From: Bacteroidetes bacterium HGW-Bacteroidetes-8
GTDB taxonomy: Bacteria > Bacteroidota > Bacteroidia > Bacteroidales > UBA932
DNA length: 64,000 nucleotides
Reading direction: 5' to 3'
NCBI GenBank assembly: GCA_002840895.1
Contig: PHCZ01000003.1
Span: 1 to 64,000 of the forward strand
Numbering within the stretch: position 1 is the stretch's first letter; every line of letters starts with the position of its first letter. Of this stretch, positions 49,972 through 57,721 are shown piece after piece. The notes below the pieces were generated by a model. The model saw only the letters and a program-made list of their open reading frames with translations, made no database searches and was not told the DNA's origin. The position numbers and the translations under genes are program-made.

Positions 49972-51570
49972 TTAAAAAAATACTCCGTTTGGCGTATAAC
50001 CTAACCAGTGAAGAAGTGTCTCTCCCCAGACAATTATCATAAACCAGCTGATAACAAGCATTGTGACCCCGAATTTAAAAGTGTCGGTTATGCTGTATTG
50101 ATTTGTAGTGTAGAGCAGTGCTGCAGGTTTGCTGTTAAATGGTAATACATAAACGTGCTCAATCAAAAGGGCAATAGGGAAAGATAGACTCATTATTGGA
50201 TATCCGAATTTTTGTGAAATCCCTATGGCAATTGGCACAAAGATTAGAGCTCTCATAGTTTTGGACTGAAAAAATAGTCCGCTGAATATCATAACAAATG
50301 TGAGGCTTAAATAGAGAACCCAGAACGGGGTCTGCTCTGTAATACCAAAATGGCTAAAGAGAGAGTCAACCATTACGGCAGGAAGGTCTGTAACCTCCAG
50401 CCCCGAACCTAATGTGTATGCTCCGGCAGAGAATAGCATAAGGTGCCACGGGATATCTACGTCATTCCATTTTACTATCCCTATGCCGGGTAGCAGAGCT
50501 ACTACGGCCCCCATAAATGCAACTGCTGTCTGAGATATTCCGTGCTGTTTGTCTGTAGCCCAAAGTAAGAGAACTACAACAAAAATCGCAATTGCTTTAA
50601 ACTCGTCAAACCTCATCTTCCCTAAAAGATGGTACTCCTGCTTAAGTCGCTCCATTCCTCCCTCAATCTGAGGAACCCTCTCGCCGGGCTTCATAGGGAA
50701 AATTATTTTAGTACCCACGACCCATCCAATCAATATTAATATCATACATAGAGGAAAAGCTGCAAAAAACCAATCCTGAAATCCGAACATAGACATCCCC
50801 ATAGATCCTGCAATTAGAGAGCCTGCAAGCAGGTTTGCACCGGAGCCTGTAATGAAGCCGCTTGCACCCATATTGATCTGGAAGAGGTTTTGAAGTACAA
50901 TATTCCTTCCGAAGTTGTTTCTTTTATCGGGAGAGGCACCATAGATTGCAGCTATAACCATAAATATCGGGAGCAGTATTGTGGCCTTAGCTGTTGTTGC
51001 CGAAATAAATATAGAGAGTACAATGTTTATAACAATAAAACTGAAAAAGATCCAGGTAGCATTTTTACCAAACCGGATTACAAACCATAAAGCAAACCTC
51101 TTTGCTACTCTTGTCTTAACAAGCATACTTGCAAGTACAAACGAGAGTATATTGAGCCACATTACAGGGTGCCCCAGCTGGGCGTATGCCAGTTTCTCAG
51201 ATGTCACTCCGGTAAGAACCATTGTTATTATCACCAGAAGTGATGTGAGGTAGTTTGGAATTGCCTCCGTAATCCAAAGAACTATTGAAGCGGCAAAAAT
51301 TGCCAGCATCGCATAGTTTATTCTGGAGAAGCTCTCCGATCCTAAGTCGTTGAAGCGTTTGAGGGACTCTTTTCCAAGAAGGCCCGGGTCTATGTCGTTC
51401 AAGAAAGAGATATCCATAAAGTAATATATCCCCAGAAAGACAACGACTGCGAGAGGACCTCCCACAATCTCCATCCACTTTTCAACCCCTGTTTTTTGTG
51501 CTTTTTTTAACTTCTCGACACGATAATTATTCATATCAAGAATGTCGTGCGTACTCTCTATAGTGCTCAT
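49972..51570 (-). CDS. SLC13/DASS-family sodium-coupled transporter
   Basis: A 532-residue inner-membrane transporter of the divalent anion:sodium symporter family, which moves C4-dicarboxylates, citrate or sulfate. Two repeat motifs are visible: the first hairpin and SNT-like region (NIVLSIFISATTAKATILLPI, near 185) and the second half with FMGAVVALLPG and LPVMVDSLFSH-type sequence. The extended N-terminal tail (about 40 residues, polar) precedes the first helix. Substrate not assignable. It is the first gene of a two-gene unit with the 485-residue unknown protein. Confidence 0.9.
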   Translation of the reverse strand: MSTIESTHDILDMNNYRVEKLKKAQKTGVEKWMEIVGGPLAVVVFLGIYYFMDISFLNDIDPGLLGKESLKRFNDLGSESFSRINYAMLAIFAASIVLWITEAIPNYLTSLLVIITMVLTGVTSEKLAYAQLGHPVMWLNILSFVLASMLVKTRVAKRFALWFVIRFGKNATWIFFSFIVINIVLSIFISATTAKATILLPIFMVIAAIYGASPDKRNNFGRNIVLQNLFQINMGASGFITGSGANLLAGSLIAGSMGMSMFGFQDWFFAAFPLCMILILIGWVVGTKIIFPMKPGERVPQIEGGMERLKQEYHLLGKMRFDEFKAIAIFVVVLLLWATDKQHGISQTAVAFMGAVVALLPGIGIVKWNDVDIPWHLMLFSAGAYTLGSGLEVTDLPAVMVDSLFSHFGITEQTPFWVLYLSLTFVMIFSGLFFQSKTMRALIFVPIAIGISQKFGYPIMSLSFPIALLIEHVYVLPFNSKPAALLYTTNQYSITDTFKFGVTMLVISWFMIIVWGETLLHWLGYTPNGVFF

Positions 51571-51647: not shown

Positions 51648-52118
51648 TCACCACTTGGTATAAGGGTTCTTCATAAGCATTGAGTTGTAATACTTAGAGT
51701 CCCCTGTCACCTCTTCTCCTACCCAATCTGGCTTGGTGAATGCCTGATCTTCGGTTTTCAGTTCTACTTCAGCTACTATCAAGCCACTATTCTCACCATA
51801 GAACTCATCTACCTCAAAAGTGTGGATTCCGGACTTTACCTCATAACGTGTTTTGTCAATAACTCCCGGTTCACAAATTTTGAGCAACTCCTCAACCTCG
51901 CTAACAGGAATCTCTTTCTCCCACTCATAACGGGAAGCTCCACTTTCATTACCGATTCCCTTTATGGTAATATAGCCGGATTTCCCCTTTATGCGCACCC
52001 TCACTGTACGCTCCGGCACAGATGAGAGATAGCCTTGTGTAATTCGAGTCTCCTTAGAGGCAACCTTTTTGAAATCTCCAGACTTCACCAGAAATTTTCT
52101 CTCTATCTCCTGTGCCAT
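51648..52118 (-). CDS. CYTH-domain protein (triphosphate tunnel metalloenzyme family)
   Basis: A 156-residue CYTH protein. The opening EIERKFLV (4-11) is the canonical ExExK motif that binds metal and triphosphate. Further tunnel-lining charges follow: TVRVRIKGKSGYITIKG (38-54), RYEWEKEIPVSEVEELL and an acidic strand with LIVAEVELKTEDQ. Members hydrolyse or bind triphosphate compounds such as inorganic tripolyphosphate, thiamine triphosphate or, in other lineages, ATP to cAMP. The length matches short bacterial tripolyphosphatases. It is the last gene of the phosphate operon, with 1 bp to the preceding gene, so a phosphate- or polyphosphate-linked role is reasonable. Confidence 0.9.
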   Translation of the reverse strand: MAQEIERKFLVKSGDFKKVASKETRITQGYLSSVPERTVRVRIKGKSGYITIKGIGNESGASRYEWEKEIPVSEVEELLKICEPGVIDKTRYEVKSGIHTFEVDEFYGENSGLIVAEVELKTEDQAFTKPDWVGEEVTGDSKYYNSMLMKNPYTKW

Positions 52119-52119
52119 A

Positions 52120-52764
52120 CTATTCGTTTGCTAAAGGTTTGTTAATCATTCCTATTACCCGTTTGATTGCCTGTAGATAGTTGATATTTTCAACCCCTTC
52201 AAGTCCTACATCCTTAACGGTTTTGAGGATATCTTCCACCTCAGTAGATTCGGAGTTTATTGTGAGCAGTTTTGCTCCATTAATGAGTACCACTCCGGTT
52301 TCGCAGATTGTGTTGTTTACCATATATCCGAATCTCTGTTTGTATACGCGTACAGCCTGAAGATCGGGGTGGTTAACAACCATCTCCATAAACTCATCGT
52401 ATGTGTAGATCTCCTTCTTTAGTTCCGCCATTTTCACCTGAAATGCGGGAAAGACCTCTTTTTTGAGAACATCTGCAGAGATTGGGAACTCCCCTTTCAT
52501 AAGAGGATTCCACTGCTCCAACCCCTCTACTGTCTGAACGTAGGTCTTAATATCCATCTTACCATCACGAATCTTGGTATTGTTTATATCATTCGTTCGT
52601 GAAACGATGTATATCTCTTCGCTGGTTCTCTCCCAAACCTTCTCCGGAATTGGAACACTCAGTCGTGCCATTCTCATAAAGGCCTTGTCAAAATTTTGAC
52701 CGAATGTTCTATACTCGAATCTAGGTTTTGATATCTCTCCTATTTTCAACTCTTCTTTACTCAT
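52120..52764 (-). CDS. Divergent CYTH-like protein of unknown function
   Basis: A 214-residue soluble protein, probably of the CYTH/triphosphate-tunnel superfamily. It has successive strands with alternating charges: RFEYRTFGQ, EEIYIVSRTNDINNTKIRDGKMDIKTY, then VRVYKQRFGYMVNNTICETGVVLING. The ending EGVENINYLQAIKRVIGM resembles the closing region of CYTH folds. The strict ExExK motif is absent, so a substrate-binding or regulatory role is as likely as catalysis. It is 1 bp from the canonical CYTH gene and 27 bp after the lipoprotein gene. The superfamily assignment is inference. Confidence 0.55.
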   Translation of the reverse strand: MSKEELKIGEISKPRFEYRTFGQNFDKAFMRMARLSVPIPEKVWERTSEEIYIVSRTNDINNTKIRDGKMDIKTYVQTVEGLEQWNPLMKGEFPISADVLKKEVFPAFQVKMAELKKEIYTYDEFMEMVVNHPDLQAVRVYKQRFGYMVNNTICETGVVLINGAKLLTINSESTEVEDILKTVKDVGLEGVENINYLQAIKRVIGMINKPLANE

Positions 52765-52791: not shown

Positions 52792-53616
52792 CTAATTTGC
52801 GTTGTTGTTAGAGCTCCCTTTTGTCGGGTTATTAAATATTAACAATGTAGATGATCCGTCCGGCTTACGACCGTAAGATTTCTTCCCTGCAAGTGCAATT
52901 GTGCCAAAGTCCAGTGATGCAACAAGCACTCCGGAAGGGTTCTCCAGATATACGGCATCGCCACCTGTACTCAATCCAAACTGAACAGTCTCTTCATTAT
53001 ACTCTGTTGAGATAACAAGGAAACCCTTTGCTGCAATAGTGAGATTACCTAATACCCTTTTTGGTTTTGTGGTTCCATATATTCCTCCGTCAGATACAAG
53101 ATAGCCTGCAAGATTTACAGGAATTTCTGAGTTATTATAGATTTCAAACCAGTCCGGATCGGTATTATCTTTTGTTCCGTCTGCAAAGACTTCATTTATA
53201 AACAAGCTTATTACTGTAGATGCTCCTACAGTATAGGTTGCTAATGCAGTGGGTGCTGTTGCCGGGTATTTTGATTTAAGACCATCCTGATTTGTCACCT
53301 CTACATAATATTGAACAGCGGTATTTAAAGGATGTACAGGAATTGTTCCGGTATAGATAAAATTCGCTCCGGCAGTCATTGCCACCGATGTAAATGTTGA
53401 TGCTGTTGATATCTTATACATAAGATTTACGGATGTTACCCCTTTAAGGTCTGTAACTTTTGCAGTTACGGTTACACTCTCTGTAGATTTAGGGGCAGCA
53501 GGGTTTGCTGCAACATTTGAAATAGAGGCCGGTCCTTCAAATACCAGGTCTTTCACGCAAGAGGTTGATAAAAGCAGTGATGCCAAAGGTATCAATATCA
53601 ATAATTTATTTTTCAT
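52792..53616 (-). CDS. Lipoprotein with lamin-tail (LTD) domain
   Basis: A 274-residue surface lipoprotein. The leader ends at the lipobox LLSTSC (Cys20). An Ig/FN3-like region (about 30-130) is followed by a lamin-tail domain (about 137-260) with LFINEVFADGTKDNTDPDWFEIYNNS and VNLAGYLVSDGG, the conserved LTD pattern. Bacterial LTD domains occur in secreted phosphatases, nucleases and adhesins and probably bind or orient partners. It lies directly after the OprP-type porin (19 bp), so it may be its surface partner. Confidence 0.8.
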   Translation of the reverse strand: MKNKLLILIPLASLLLSTSCVKDLVFEGPASISNVAANPAAPKSTESVTVTAKVTDLKGVTSVNLMYKISTASTFTSVAMTAGANFIYTGTIPVHPLNTAVQYYVEVTNQDGLKSKYPATAPTALATYTVGASTVISLFINEVFADGTKDNTDPDWFEIYNNSEIPVNLAGYLVSDGGIYGTTKPKRVLGNLTIAAKGFLVISTEYNEETVQFGLSTGGDAVYLENPSGVLVASLDFGTIALAGKKSYGRKPDGSSTLLIFNNPTKGSSNNNAN

Positions 53617-53635: not shown

Positions 53636-55000
53636 TTAAAAAGCTATTTGGAATCTAACTCCAAGCATTCCGAAATCGTCACCTGCTTCACCAGCCGATG
53701 TCGCTACTTTAGTAGGGTCCTTTGTAAGATTACCCTCTACATCCTTTCCCACAAAGAGTTTTTTCTTTCCGCTTGCATATCTGTCGTGGTTTACATAACT
53801 GTAGTTAATCTGAAACTTGAAGTTATAACCTGTATAGATATTAAATCCTGCTGTTATACCCTCTGCAGAACCACCATATACATCTTTATCATTTAAGTTA
53901 ACGTAGTCGTAACGAAGAACAAACTCAATGTCTCCCCATTTACGGCCAAAATCCGGCTGGGTAAACTCTCCTTCACCCTTATTGTAGACCTGTCTTCCTC
54001 CTAAAAGCATATAACCTCCCTCAATATGGAATCCGCCAAAATTGAGAGTCTCAAGGTTGTTCTTTCTGATAAGATTGTTATTCATAATTTCACTCTGCAA
54101 AAAGAACCCTTTGTAGAATGTTGCCATCTCTATATTTGTAAAACTTTCGTGGTCCATATTTGGAATCAAGTCTGTATCCAGATACTTCTTTCTGTTAATA
54201 TTACTCAATGATCGTGAACTGTACCTTGCCATACCCCACTCACCCGGAGCGTAGCTGGTTTTGGGTGTTCTGTATGAGTATGCAAATCCAAGGTGTAATC
54301 CATAATCTTTTATATGGTTAAACGGTTGATAAATAAATTTTCCTGTTAATGAGATACCCTCATCACGGCCAAAATCTTTGTTGTTATCTTCTGTATAGAT
54401 AGCCTTCTCTGCATCCTCTATCTCCTGAAAGAAGATACCTCCTACAGCAAGAAATTTATTCCCTGAGTAAGATGTCTCCCATCCAATATGTCTGGATGGT
54501 GCAAAAGTCCCAACCTCCAGAGAGCGTTCCATAAACTTAATGTACCTAGAAGATGTGGTCTGAGTCATTGAGAAAGGCTCTTTGAAGTTACCTACTCTTG
54601 TGGAGAGTCCGTTTAGAAAATCATACTGCAGATAGGCATCATTAAGCTCCAGAACACCATTTGCAACATTAATATCCAACTCTCCGTATAGATGCTTGTT
54701 AAGGTTAGCCTTAACTGCAAATCTGGCCCTTCTTATCTTGGCTCCATCACCAATTTCATTAAGAGCATTTTTAGAAAACAGCTGTGCATCTGCCTGCAAT
54801 CTAATATCAAACCAGAATTTGTAATCCTGATCTTTAGATTCAAATACAAGGATGCCGTTACGAGCCTCTGCAGAGAGTGGTTTTCTCTCTTTGATCAGTT
54901 TGCCGTACTGGTCATAACGAACTTCGCTTTGAGGTGGTTCCTGCGCATTTGCTACTACAAAGAGAAGCAGCAGAGTTAGTGTCAATAATGATTTTTTCAT
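53636..55000 (-). CDS. Phosphate-selective porin, OprO/OprP family
   Basis: A 454-residue outer-membrane barrel (Porin_O_P family). A signal peptide ends near ANAQE. The family block GAKIRRARFAVKANLNKHLYGELDINVANG appears at about 83-112, with ELNDAYLQYDFLNGLSTRVGNFKEPFSM following and a terminal phenylalanine in VRFQIAF. OprP and OprO of Pseudomonas form channels for phosphate and pyrophosphate. Homologues in Bacteroidota are widespread, and their selectivity is not always tested. Its place behind a PiT transporter supports phosphate or polyphosphate uptake here. Confidence 0.9.
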   Translation of the reverse strand: MKKSLLTLTLLLLFVVANAQEPPQSEVRYDQYGKLIKERKPLSAEARNGILVFESKDQDYKFWFDIRLQADAQLFSKNALNEIGDGAKIRRARFAVKANLNKHLYGELDINVANGVLELNDAYLQYDFLNGLSTRVGNFKEPFSMTQTTSSRYIKFMERSLEVGTFAPSRHIGWETSYSGNKFLAVGGIFFQEIEDAEKAIYTEDNNKDFGRDEGISLTGKFIYQPFNHIKDYGLHLGFAYSYRTPKTSYAPGEWGMARYSSRSLSNINRKKYLDTDLIPNMDHESFTNIEMATFYKGFFLQSEIMNNNLIRKNNLETLNFGGFHIEGGYMLLGGRQVYNKGEGEFTQPDFGRKWGDIEFVLRYDYVNLNDKDVYGGSAEGITAGFNIYTGYNFKFQINYSYVNHDRYASGKKKLFVGKDVEGNLTKDPTKVATSAGEAGDDFGMLGVRFQIAF

Positions 55001-55067: not shown

Positions 55068-56816
55068 CTAAGCTGTCTTTACAAACTCTACAAGATTTTC
55101 ATCCTGAGAAAGATTTAATTTTTTACGAAGCCTGTGTCTGCTGATCTCAACACTTTTTACGGAAATATTTAATATTGGTGCTATCTCTTTTGACGAAAAG
55201 CCGATTCTGAGCAACATCATCAACCTTCTGTCCTGAACTGTAAGGTTTGGAAACTTCTGGATGAGTCTGTTAGAGAAATCAGAATAGACGTGCTCTGCCT
55301 GAGTATAGATTCGCTCTACCTCGTTTGTAAAGCTCATTTTTTGTTTTATCCTCCTTATCTCTGCCATAAGCAGCTCGTTTTTCTCCTTTGGATCCTGAGT
55401 ATTGATTGCAGATTCAAGCGTTCTGGAGATTGAGCTAAGAAGTTGCCTCTGCTCTCCAATGCTCAACGAGTAGGTTATAAGCTCTCTTTTTCTCTCTTCC
55501 AGCCTTGTTACCAAAGAGTCATTCTCCAGCTGAATAGTGCTCACCTCCATATCGCTTAAAGACTTCCTTATATCTGTATAGTTTACAAGTTCTGTCCAGC
55601 GCTTCTCATTCTCCCGGAGTTTTTGTCTGTTCCTCTGATATCTGTAAAAAAGAATTACTATAGTAATGAGCAGTAGAAAGAGAAGAACTATAATTAGAAT
55701 ATTAACCATCTCCAAAGGAATATTTATTGCAGATGATTTCACCGGTCCGGGTTCAAGCACACTTCCTGCAATATTTTTCTTTGTTACTGATATTCCAAAG
55801 ACACTCTGAATAAAAAAGAGGCTAAAGAAAGTAGTTATTCCGGAGAGTATCGGAGTTAATATCCACCCTGCAATTATATTTCGGATCATCTTGAACTTAA
55901 TCTCCTGCACACCTTTAACCAATCCTATTCCCAAAACCGAACCAACTACAACCTGAGTGCTTGATACCGGAACCAGAGGTATAGCCGGCAACCCTATGCT
56001 CACAAAAAGATTTGATAGAGATGTAGAGGAGAATATAAACAGAACAAGCGCCTGTGCCAGCACCACAACAATTGCACTCTCCGGAGTCATAGCCAGAATT
56101 CCCGTTCCGATAGTCTCCATAACCTTTTTGCTATAGGTTAAAATCCCGACTGCAATGGAGATGCCCCCTAGAAGGAATAAAACAGTTATTGAGTTTAAAG
56201 AAAAGCCTCCAATGTTGATATCAAATGAGACTGTCTTAACAAATACTCCCATAACATTGGCAATATTGTTTGCACCAAGGCTATATGCACCAAATGCTCC
56301 CGCAATAATTAGTCCGTAACGTATTACAGAGTCCAGTTTAAGGAGGTGAATATGGCTCCTTCTGATATATCTACGTAAAAGCATATAAAGGAGCGCCGAG
56401 AATATCGCTCCAAGAATAGGTCCGCTAATCCAGCTTCCCACAATAACGGTTAGTACAGTATAGTCTACCGGATTAGCAGTAAAATAACACCATCCCATAA
56501 TTGCCCCCACAATAGCCTGCCCGGTAGATACCGGAAGCTTAAACCTGGTCATAATTGCAACAATCAGCCCCGAACACAGCGCTACGGTAAAGGCTCCGCC
56601 AACAGCATCTACGGAACCCAGCTCCGACAATGTGTTGGTGGTTCCTGTACCTTGCAAAACAGCACCAAGTATTACAAAAATTCCGGCTATCAAAGCTGCC
56701 TTTGAGAATTTGATCATCCTTGATCCAACAGCTGTTCCAAAAATATTGGCAGCATCATTGGCACCAAGGGACCACCCCAAAAACAGACCACTCGATATAA
56801 AGATAAGTATCAGCAT
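55068..56816 (-). CDS. PiT phosphate transporter fused to a coiled linker and LuxR-type DNA-binding domain
   Basis: A single 582-residue reading frame. Residues 1-340 are an inorganic phosphate transporter of the PiT family, with both signature repeats (GANDAANIFG at 18-27 and GANNIANVMG at 181-190) and about ten helices. After a short extracytoplasmic stretch (about 342-368) one more helix (370-391) leads to basic YRYQRNRQK, placing the rest in the cytoplasm. A long coiled-coil-like linker (about 395-515) contains LITYSLSIGEQRQLLSSISRTLE, as in Bacteroidota LuxR-type regulators. A C-terminal LuxR HTH (about 525-572) reads GFSSKEIAPILNISVKSVEISRHRLRKKL. PiT proteins normally lack DNA-binding domains. 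A membrane-tethered transcription factor that senses phosphate flux is inferred. The DUF47 gene precedes it by 3 bp. Confidence 0.9.
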   Translation of the reverse strand: MLILIFISSGLFLGWSLGANDAANIFGTAVGSRMIKFSKAALIAGIFVILGAVLQGTGTTNTLSELGSVDAVGGAFTVALCSGLIVAIMTRFKLPVSTGQAIVGAIMGWCYFTANPVDYTVLTVIVGSWISGPILGAIFSALLYMLLRRYIRRSHIHLLKLDSVIRYGLIIAGAFGAYSLGANNIANVMGVFVKTVSFDINIGGFSLNSITVLFLLGGISIAVGILTYSKKVMETIGTGILAMTPESAIVVVLAQALVLFIFSSTSLSNLFVSIGLPAIPLVPVSSTQVVVGSVLGIGLVKGVQEIKFKMIRNIIAGWILTPILSGITTFFSLFFIQSVFGISVTKKNIAGSVLEPGPVKSSAINIPLEMVNILIIVLLFLLLITIVILFYRYQRNRQKLRENEKRWTELVNYTDIRKSLSDMEVSTIQLENDSLVTRLEERKRELITYSLSIGEQRQLLSSISRTLESAINTQDPKEKNELLMAEIRRIKQKMSFTNEVERIYTQAEHVYSDFSNRLIQKFPNLTVQDRRLMMLLRIGFSSKEIAPILNISVKSVEISRHRLRKKLNLSQDENLVEFVKTA

Positions 56817-56819
56817 AAC

Positions 56820-57467
56820 CTACACTACCCTTTTAATTGCCATTATAGAGAGTAGGTCGGCAACCTTCTCGGCTGTATCGGAAATCATCTCAATATGCAG
56901 AGTAAAGTAACGAAGATGAAATTTCTCACTTAATTTAAGCTCCGGCATCTCACGGAAAATTCTTCTGCGTATTATATCGGCCAAAAGATCTGCCTCTTTT
57001 TCATAGAAGTAGACTCTATGAATCTTCTCATTCACATTTACAGGATCTGTAAAGTAGGACTTTGCTGCAGGTATTACTGACTCAGCAGCAGAGACCGATA
57101 TTTGAGTGAGCCGAATGAAGTCCGGTATAAGCTCTGCAGGAATGTGCGGCTGCTCTACGTCAAACTGGAAAAGATTTTTTTTTGCCTGGTCAATAATGTT
57201 GTCCAGCTCCTCCAGCAATCTCATAAAATCTCCTCTTAATTCCGGCATTAAAGATTGAGAAAAGAGGGTATTCTCTATTTTTCTTCTCAGCTTATCTGAC
57301 TCCAGCTCAGAATTTGCCAGAGATTGAAGGTTGGAGTTGAAGTTTTCTGTACTGGCATAGAGGTAATTTTTTACACCCTCTTTAAAAAGCAGTAGACTTT
57401 GATCTACGCAATTAAGAAATTGATCGATCAGCTCAATAGATTTGTTCGCTTTTGCAAAAAGTAACAT
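56820..57467 (-). CDS. PhoU-like DUF47 protein (PiT accessory)
   Basis: A 215-residue all-helical cytosolic protein of the DUF47/PhoU-like family, which usually accompanies PiT transporters and tunes phosphate uptake. Two three-helix repeats are visible, with acidic metal-binding helices: SELESDKLRRKIENTLF and RLLEELDNIIDQAKKNLFQF, then EKEADLLADIIRRRIF and HIEMISDTAEKVADLLSIMA. The arrangement matches the E/DxxxD metal motifs. It is the first gene of the phosphate operon and is followed 3 bp later by the PiT fusion gene, so coupled translation is likely. Confidence 0.9.
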   Translation of the reverse strand: MLLFAKANKSIELIDQFLNCVDQSLLLFKEGVKNYLYASTENFNSNLQSLANSELESDKLRRKIENTLFSQSLMPELRGDFMRLLEELDNIIDQAKKNLFQFDVEQPHIPAELIPDFIRLTQISVSAAESVIPAAKSYFTDPVNVNEKIHRVYFYEKEADLLADIIRRRIFREMPELKLSEKFHLRYFTLHIEMISDTAEKVADLLSIMAIKRVV

Positions 57468-57630
57468 ACTCTCAATGTTTTTAGTAATACCCCACGCAAG
57501 TTACAATTTATTCAATCCTGAAATTCATCTCTCAATAAATATTCAAGAGGTAGCAATAGCTCTTCTGTAGAGGTATCAGTTATTATTATTCCGTTATTTA
57601 TAAATTATTTAAATATAGTAATATTATACT

Positions 57631-57721
57631 TTGTAGAGTTACTTTTTAATTTTAGACTATTTTTGTAGAGTTTATGTATAGGTGTAATCAGACTGTTTTA
57701 TTATGTCTGATAACTCTACAA
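57631..57721. promoter_or_regulatory. Three copies of TTGTAGAGTTA between the phosphate operon and the glycosyltransferase
   Basis: TTGTAGAGTTA occurs at 57631-57641, TTGTAGAGTTT at 57663-57673 (32 bp later, about three helical turns), and the inverse TAACTCTACAA at 57711-57721. The intergenic region is otherwise AT-rich. Repeated 11-mers in mixed orientation at a divergent promoter resemble operator sites. The rest of 57468-57813 holds no gene that I can support. Confidence 0.5.

Follow-up and report, generated by a model that had tools for sequence, protein, structure and literature searches.

A PiT carrier fused to a LuxR-type DNA-binding domain in Bacteroidales: a candidate membrane-tethered regulator of its own operon

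Could a transport protein report its own state directly to the genome? The question is raised by a gene on the minus strand of a 64,000-nucleotide stretch of DNA from Bacteroidetes bacterium HGW-Bacteroidetes-8 (contig PHCZ01000003.1, positions 1 to 64,000; the whole stretch is called the window below), in which a single reading frame joins a PiT carrier to a LuxR-type helix-turn-helix (HTH) domain. As judged from sequence comparison, the fusion is conserved across the order Bacteroidales, and in many of its members it ends a phosphate-type carrier in a DNA-binding domain. We think it probable that the protein is a membrane-tethered one-component regulator, which uses its PiT carrier as a sensor and controls its own operon. 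The fusion gene and its parts are as follows.

55068..56816, minus strand: PiT-HTH fusion gene, 582 aa
55782..56816, minus strand: PiT carrier core, residues 1-345
56745..56765, minus strand: first PiT signature GANDAAN, residues 18-24, by alignment
56256..56276, minus strand: second PiT signature GANNIAN, residues 181-187, by alignment
55644..55709, minus strand: extra transmembrane helix past the PiT core, about residues 370-391 (hydropathy 3.45 at 373-391; model helix from 368)
55257..55643, minus strand: long helical, coiled-coil-like linker, residues 392-520 (model helices 368-472 and 476-521)
55071..55256, minus strand: LuxR/GerE HTH, residues 521-582 (GerE at 524-577; 517-582 against the DosR C-terminal domain)

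An earlier note on this DNA had claimed that one frame holds a complete PiT transporter, a linker and a LuxR-type HTH. This is borne out by the Pfam profiles: PHO4 (PF01384) matches with 185.8 bits, above its gathering cut-off of 33.7, and GerE matches the tail with 38 bits against a cut-off of 23.5. The carrier half has the PiT fold and also matches 6l85, the tail is predicted to adopt an intact HTH fold, and in the linker model the confidence score (predicted local distance difference test, pLDDT) is low near residues 409-415. The predicted topology supports a cytoplasmic HTH, as the note had also held, and Pfam and NCBIfam scans of the protein returned no kinase family. Both halves are under purifying selection, the ratio of nonsynonymous to synonymous substitution rates (dN/dS) against locus L033 being 0.026 (PiT part), 0.031 (linker) and 0.007 (HTH), with the reservation that synonymous changes are near saturation against L033 (dS 0.7-1.0) and beyond saturation against L034. 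The first signature keeps the critical Asp, and the second has Asn in place of Asp; it has neither the His nor the Asp that are critical in human PiT2 (PMC3126765). That a frameshift or an assembly join has merely fused two genes is an explanation we discount almost entirely: same-length fusions at 97, 83, 75 and 60-64% identity recur in different records from many separate assemblies, and the check for such an artefact gave no sign of one and no point in its favour.

Full-length homologues of the fusion, at 42-97% identity, are found across the order. In a survey of 393 Bacteroidales genomes (matches at E 1e-35 or better, the three best candidates per genome scored), 41 held a match and 27 of these carried the tail. 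The match spans from residue 1-3 to at least residue 578 in 23 of the 27, including G503, whose gene is broken by a stop, and G719, whose HTH has decayed; in the remaining tail carriers the protein is in pieces (G796), has a longer linker (G692 and G490) or has a decayed carrier (G010). In thirteen of the 41 genomes no tail is seen, with G616 among them cut by its contig end, and G683 is separately contig-cut. Among 395 genomes across the phylum, close PiT relatives turned up in 12 genomes from other orders, and the tail matched in none of the 12. PiT relatives of 399-412 aa lack the tail wholly and keep the carrier motifs; such proteins in L042-L053 and L056 retain the extra helix and stop after a brief stub on the cytoplasmic side, a form that looks like either a truncated fusion or the state preceding it. 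Outside the order, L085-L093 hold close PiT relatives of 490-515 aa with DUF47 upstream, OprP downstream and a C-terminal extension of about 150 residues, in which no further Pfam family scored above cut-off in the two that were scanned (L085 and L091). The genome of the window also encodes a second PHO4-family protein, of 739 aa (G000:C17, L002:1426-3645).

Where did the DNA-binding half come from? Residues 370-582 match the C-termini of Bacteroidota regulators outside the fusion, three of which were scanned: L095 has a Reg_prop/Y_Y_Y sensor, and L108 and L072 have TPR sensors. The carrier thus stands where such regulators usually have their sensor domain, and the guess of the earlier note that the tail is of the Bacteroidota LuxR-regulator type proved right. 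The fusion may have arisen once or several times: the starred branches of a tail tree need at least three changes, but two rows coded there as 'other' (L115 and L131) are broken or cut PiT fusions.

If the tail binds DNA, where would it do so? The region upstream of the operon, which begins with a DUF47 gene, contains a recurring heptamer and a candidate promoter element.

57664..57670, minus strand: candidate operator CTCTACA, -203 from the DUF47 start
57632..57638, minus strand: candidate operator CTCTACA, -171
57566..57572, minus strand: candidate operator CTCTACA, -105
57714..57720, plus strand: fourth CTCTACA copy, opposite strand, -253
57496..57503, minus strand: TAACTTGC, candidate -7 promoter element, a loose match only to TAnnTTTG

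The copy at -253 recurs in L034, L058 and L059. Over 300 bp upstream of DUF47 in each of 32 loci with an intact HTH (L033 and L039 among them being near copies of others), the motif CWCTACA has 49 coding-strand sites in 26 loci, against 1.55 expected from Markov copies, with two or more sites in 17 loci and only 8 sites on the other strand. It is absent from all 25 HTH-less loci within the order (L149 among them is contig-cut before the tail) and from the one decayed-HTH locus, and a single site is present among 14 loci from outside the order. The looser motif CHHTACA is present in 32/32 HTH-intact loci versus 5/25 HTH-less ones, and six scrambled motifs reach at most 3/32. A direct repeat of 11 bp, resembling a Pho box, was tried as the motif and rejected, as in many loci it did no better than in shuffled copies; the better fit is a phased array of one 7-mer. 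The distances between adjacent sites (32-33, 41-43, 54-56, 66 or 108 bp) fall close to multiples of 10.9 bp. Of 2000 random placements not one reached this periodicity, a figure that is not a clean probability since the loci are related.

The Bacteroidota -7 consensus is TAnnTTTG. Its strict form is found in 18 of 30 loci, 25-42 bp ahead of the start codon, where 2.2 would be expected. A looser version is found in 26 of 30, with 8.5 expected, and the window fits this version only. The sites of the window are 69, 135 and 167 bp upstream of its likely -7 element; in 21 loci, measured from the looser element, sites form clusters at upstream distances of 66-69, 113-135 and 161-168 bp, apart from outliers at 10, 58, 75, 151, 152 and 176. 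As the sites lie upstream of the promoter element, activation is suggested, and their positions would suit an activator.

What else carries such sites? A three-site array scan of the 393 genomes of the order matched in 11, of which G578, G594 and G784 have simple or internal repeats. The other eight have one place each: in G000, G726 and G742 it is at PiT-HTH operons, in G592, G794 and G655 it is directly beside TPR-LuxR genes whose tails match that of the fusion (E values of 8e-19 to 7e-23 from a search of a very small database), and in the last two it is inside other coding frames. The recognition helices are similar, reading KAVEMSRYRLRKK(L/F) in the three TPR-LuxR genes and KSVEISRHRLRKKL in the window. 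At these three loci the array lies between the regulator and the next gene and is oriented opposite to that gene. CWCTACA arrays between a TPR-LuxR gene and the next gene are seen in L241, L243 and L244; the next gene is SusC-like (by eye) in L241, AhpC/TSA followed by DUF6029 in L243, and looks alike in L244, and the arrays are candidate targets of the adjoining regulators. A scan of eight genomes for paired CWCTACA sites gave 27 matches versus 37 for the control, so a wider regulon with that spacing was not seen; six of the 27 lie at the PiT-HTH operons themselves.

In some relatives one half of the fusion has decayed. In L058 (G010) and L059 (G021), from the window's own genus, the carrier profile still matches at 64.5 and 78.9 bits, and Pfam PHO4 matches only L059. 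The first signature is gone (LSVREMPVI in L058, LSIREMPII in L059) and the second broken (INNGSM and INNGSL), yet the HTH, the porin and the CWCTACA sites persist. Their tails nest within the fusion tails (Shimodaira-Hasegawa-like approximate likelihood ratio test, SH-aLRT, 95), and G006 holds fragments of the same decayed-carrier type. In L128, L130 and L132 the first signature is partly eroded, and the HTH and the sites are intact. L127 (L127:1501-3240 / L155) is the reverse case: its carrier motifs are intact, but its recognition helix has decayed, and its locus has neither sites nor an adjoining porin; the recognition helix is kept in all other fused members with a readable HTH. Each module can thus decay on its own, with the sites in most cases sharing the fate of the HTH. 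Of the earlier note's interpretation, the transporter-HTH fusion, the cytoplasmic HTH and the type of the tail are supported, and a candidate operator tracks the HTH; phosphate or its flux as the signal is a proposal, and transport flux is an unlikely signal in L058 and L059 with their broken transport motifs. Between a diverged DUF47 gene and an OprP porin, L232:4075-5616 (G054; the same as L015) encodes a polytopic protein with the same helix-HTH tail; its polytopic part has no detectable PiT similarity and belongs to no recognisable sensor family, and it is possibly a fully decayed carrier.

The genes around the fusion in the window are as follows.

56820..57467, minus strand: DUF47/PhoU_div protein, first operon gene (Pfam E 5.6e-21)
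53636..55000, minus strand: OprP/Porin_O_P porin, gene after the fusion (Pfam E 1.3e-39)
52792..53616, minus strand: lamin-tail-domain (LTD) protein with a lipoprotein-like start (Pfam LTD E 4e-15)
52120..52764, minus strand: conserved 214-aa protein, no family above cut-off
51648..52118, minus strand: CYTH-domain protein, triphosphatase-like (Pfam E 2.4e-17)
49972..51570, minus strand: SLC13-type Na+/anion symporter, last operon gene (Pfam E 7.1e-52)

The order DUF47/PhoU-like protein, PiT-HTH, OprP-type porin is conserved: DUF47 is directly upstream of the fusion in 31/31 fused loci, and the porin is directly downstream wherever the flank reaches, except in L127 and L134. The LTD, 214-aa, CYTH and SLC13 genes follow in L033, L035, L037, L038 and L039. 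The 214-aa protein has 81-94% identity in five close relatives, and in four of these its conservation exceeds that of the porin. Coded by hand from the gene neighbourhoods within available flanks, and leaving out L111, L149 and L134, the order has 27 loci with both HTH and OprP porin, none with the HTH only, one with the porin only and 25 with neither; counting L134 would turn the zero into one. After phylogeny the linkage of HTH and porin is not significant, with 2 independent pairs (4 with weak branches) on a tree that omits L057, L128, L139, L058 and L059, of which L128, L058 and L059 have the porin. No PstB scored above cut-off in the genome of the window, which is 95.7% complete.

Several points weigh against CWCTACA as the operator of the fusion and against the fusion as regulator of this operon. 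The strict site is missing in 6 of the 32 HTH-intact loci, L232 has an intact tail but no clear array, and L134 has the HTH but a gene other than the porin comes next. In most HTH-less loci the upstream gap is short and the 300 bp are therefore largely coding; for this reason the test was repeated on loci with a gap of at least 185 bp, where 25/30 HTH-intact loci have sites versus 0/8 in the comparison set (seven HTH-less loci, including the contig-cut L149, and the decayed-HTH locus L155; Fisher p 2.6e-5, or 7.7e-5 without L149). This gap measure, from open reading frames of at least 90 aa, is crude and gives L146 483 bp and its near-identical sister L145 40 bp. As the motif had been noticed in the window and then refined on the fused set, ten further fused loci were tested. 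Strict sites were found in nine and loose ones in all ten, with 20 sites versus 0.55 expected, one on the other strand, and spacings mostly as in the first set; these ten represent two families already sampled, and three of them are 89-97% like a used locus. L234, also unused for the motif, has two sites 99 bp apart. The relatedness of the loci inflates all such counts, and on the tree only 2-4 independent pairs contrast in their HTH status. In the whole-genome scan a backward control pattern also matches, in 14 genomes at 18 uninspected places, which means that the number of arrays proves nothing and their location carries the weight. Finally, a phased pair was present in 0/40 other tail-bearing regulators within their available flanks, as was the control motif, and the array is thus not universal for the tail family.

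With these points in mind, we suggest the following mechanism. The PiT core would end on the periplasmic side, and the extra helix would cross the membrane back and run on as a long helix bearing the LuxR-type HTH, which is probably dimeric. The conformation of the PiT part, occupied or cycling versus empty, could be passed down this helix and set whether the HTHs bind the phased CWCTACA array. The array would in turn control the operon encoding the fusion itself, its PhoU-like partner and the OprP porin, with activation as the suggested mode, most likely under phosphate scarcity. Here DNA binding, dimerisation, phosphate as the ligand and the direction of control are what we infer, the ligand from the operon neighbours; the layout in one polypeptide makes it likely that no partner relay is involved.

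Which other explanations have to be considered? The array might be the target of a different regulator, for example a PhoB-like response regulator, with the tail having other targets or none. Pho boxes are built of 11-bp direct repeats, and some of our sites are such repeats (CTATACATAAACTCTACA at -214); the genome also has an OmpR-family regulator/kinase pair (G000:C13), whose best match to a PhoB model, 199 bits, is below the cut-off of 296. We find this unlikely, as the sites follow the HTH and not the porin: L150 has OprP, no HTH and no site in an 823-bp gap. Moreover, the paired pattern, for that motif and spacing, is not enriched elsewhere in the eight genomes scanned, and arrays adjoin three TPR-LuxR genes that have nothing but the tail in common with the fusion. 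It is very unlikely, on the other hand, that the tail is a regulatory or assembly domain of an ordinary carrier that does not bind DNA. Relatives of 399-412 aa do retain their carrier motifs with no tail, and L127 retains its carrier beside a decayed HTH, but the kept recognition helix, the strong constraint on the HTH, the co-occurrence of sites with it and its retention where the carrier decays all speak for DNA binding.

A question of a different kind is what the carrier senses. The Asp and His missing from the second signature leave room for another oxyanion, and the carrier could move sulfate or a related ion and the switch sense that rather than phosphate. The operon closes with an SLC13 gene, and an NCBIfam model of CysP-type sulfate permeases gives 70 bits, far under its cut-off of 400. 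The DUF47/PhoU-like partner, the OprP-type porin and the CYTH protein in the operon point instead to phosphate, as do the matches of the carrier to Pfam PHO4 and 6l85, and we regard another oxyanion as unlikely. We favor a membrane-tethered regulator of its own operon that probably responds to phosphate.

How does such a protein compare with known systems? ToxR, TcpP and CadC also hold a DNA-binding domain at the membrane, but they are single-pass proteins with a periplasmic sensor and a winged-helix domain, whereas the fusion has a LuxR-type HTH. The Bacteroidota TPR or propeller/Y_Y_Y LuxR regulators have a homologous helix-HTH tail, and three of the TPR type adjoin the same array, but their sensor consists of TPR repeats or a beta-propeller and not of a carrier. 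PiT transporters (6l85, human PiT1/2) are alike in fold and signatures; 6l85 lacks the DNA-binding tail and has Asp in its second signature. CbrA and other SLC5/STAC histidine kinases combine a carrier with a signalling output in one polypeptide (PMC13022988), as is found here; theirs is a histidine kinase acting via a response regulator, and here a direct DNA-binding domain is joined to another carrier family. Ks-Amt5 likewise recruits an uptake-transporter fold as a sensor, and it binds ammonium with no efficient translocation (PMC5764959); its Amt fold is coupled to a kinase output, whereas most members of the present family keep their carrier motifs. These carrier-kinase fusions show that carriers can act as sensors (PMC13022988; PMC5764959). 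Carrier-plus-output sensors, or transceptors, are thus already known, and the combination of PiT with a LuxR-type HTH appears from its sequence to be a new version; a search of the open-access literature found no paper on it among those listed.

More tentatively, and with a little less than even confidence, we propose that PiT carriers of Bacteroidales became membrane regulators, starting as a working carrier that reported its own state to DNA and turning, one or more times, into a non-transporting receptor, with the CWCTACA array as operator code of a wider branch of the tail family. As a defined DNA target, the array makes the claim testable. If true, the fusion would be a transporter that speaks to the genome with no kinase, second protein or small messenger. 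It would also offer a testable example, spread over a whole order, of how a carrier can turn into a receptor, and would hint at how these Bacteroidales control phosphate uptake. If the array is an operator code, the sequence could reveal what some of the Bacteroidota LuxR-type regulators act on.
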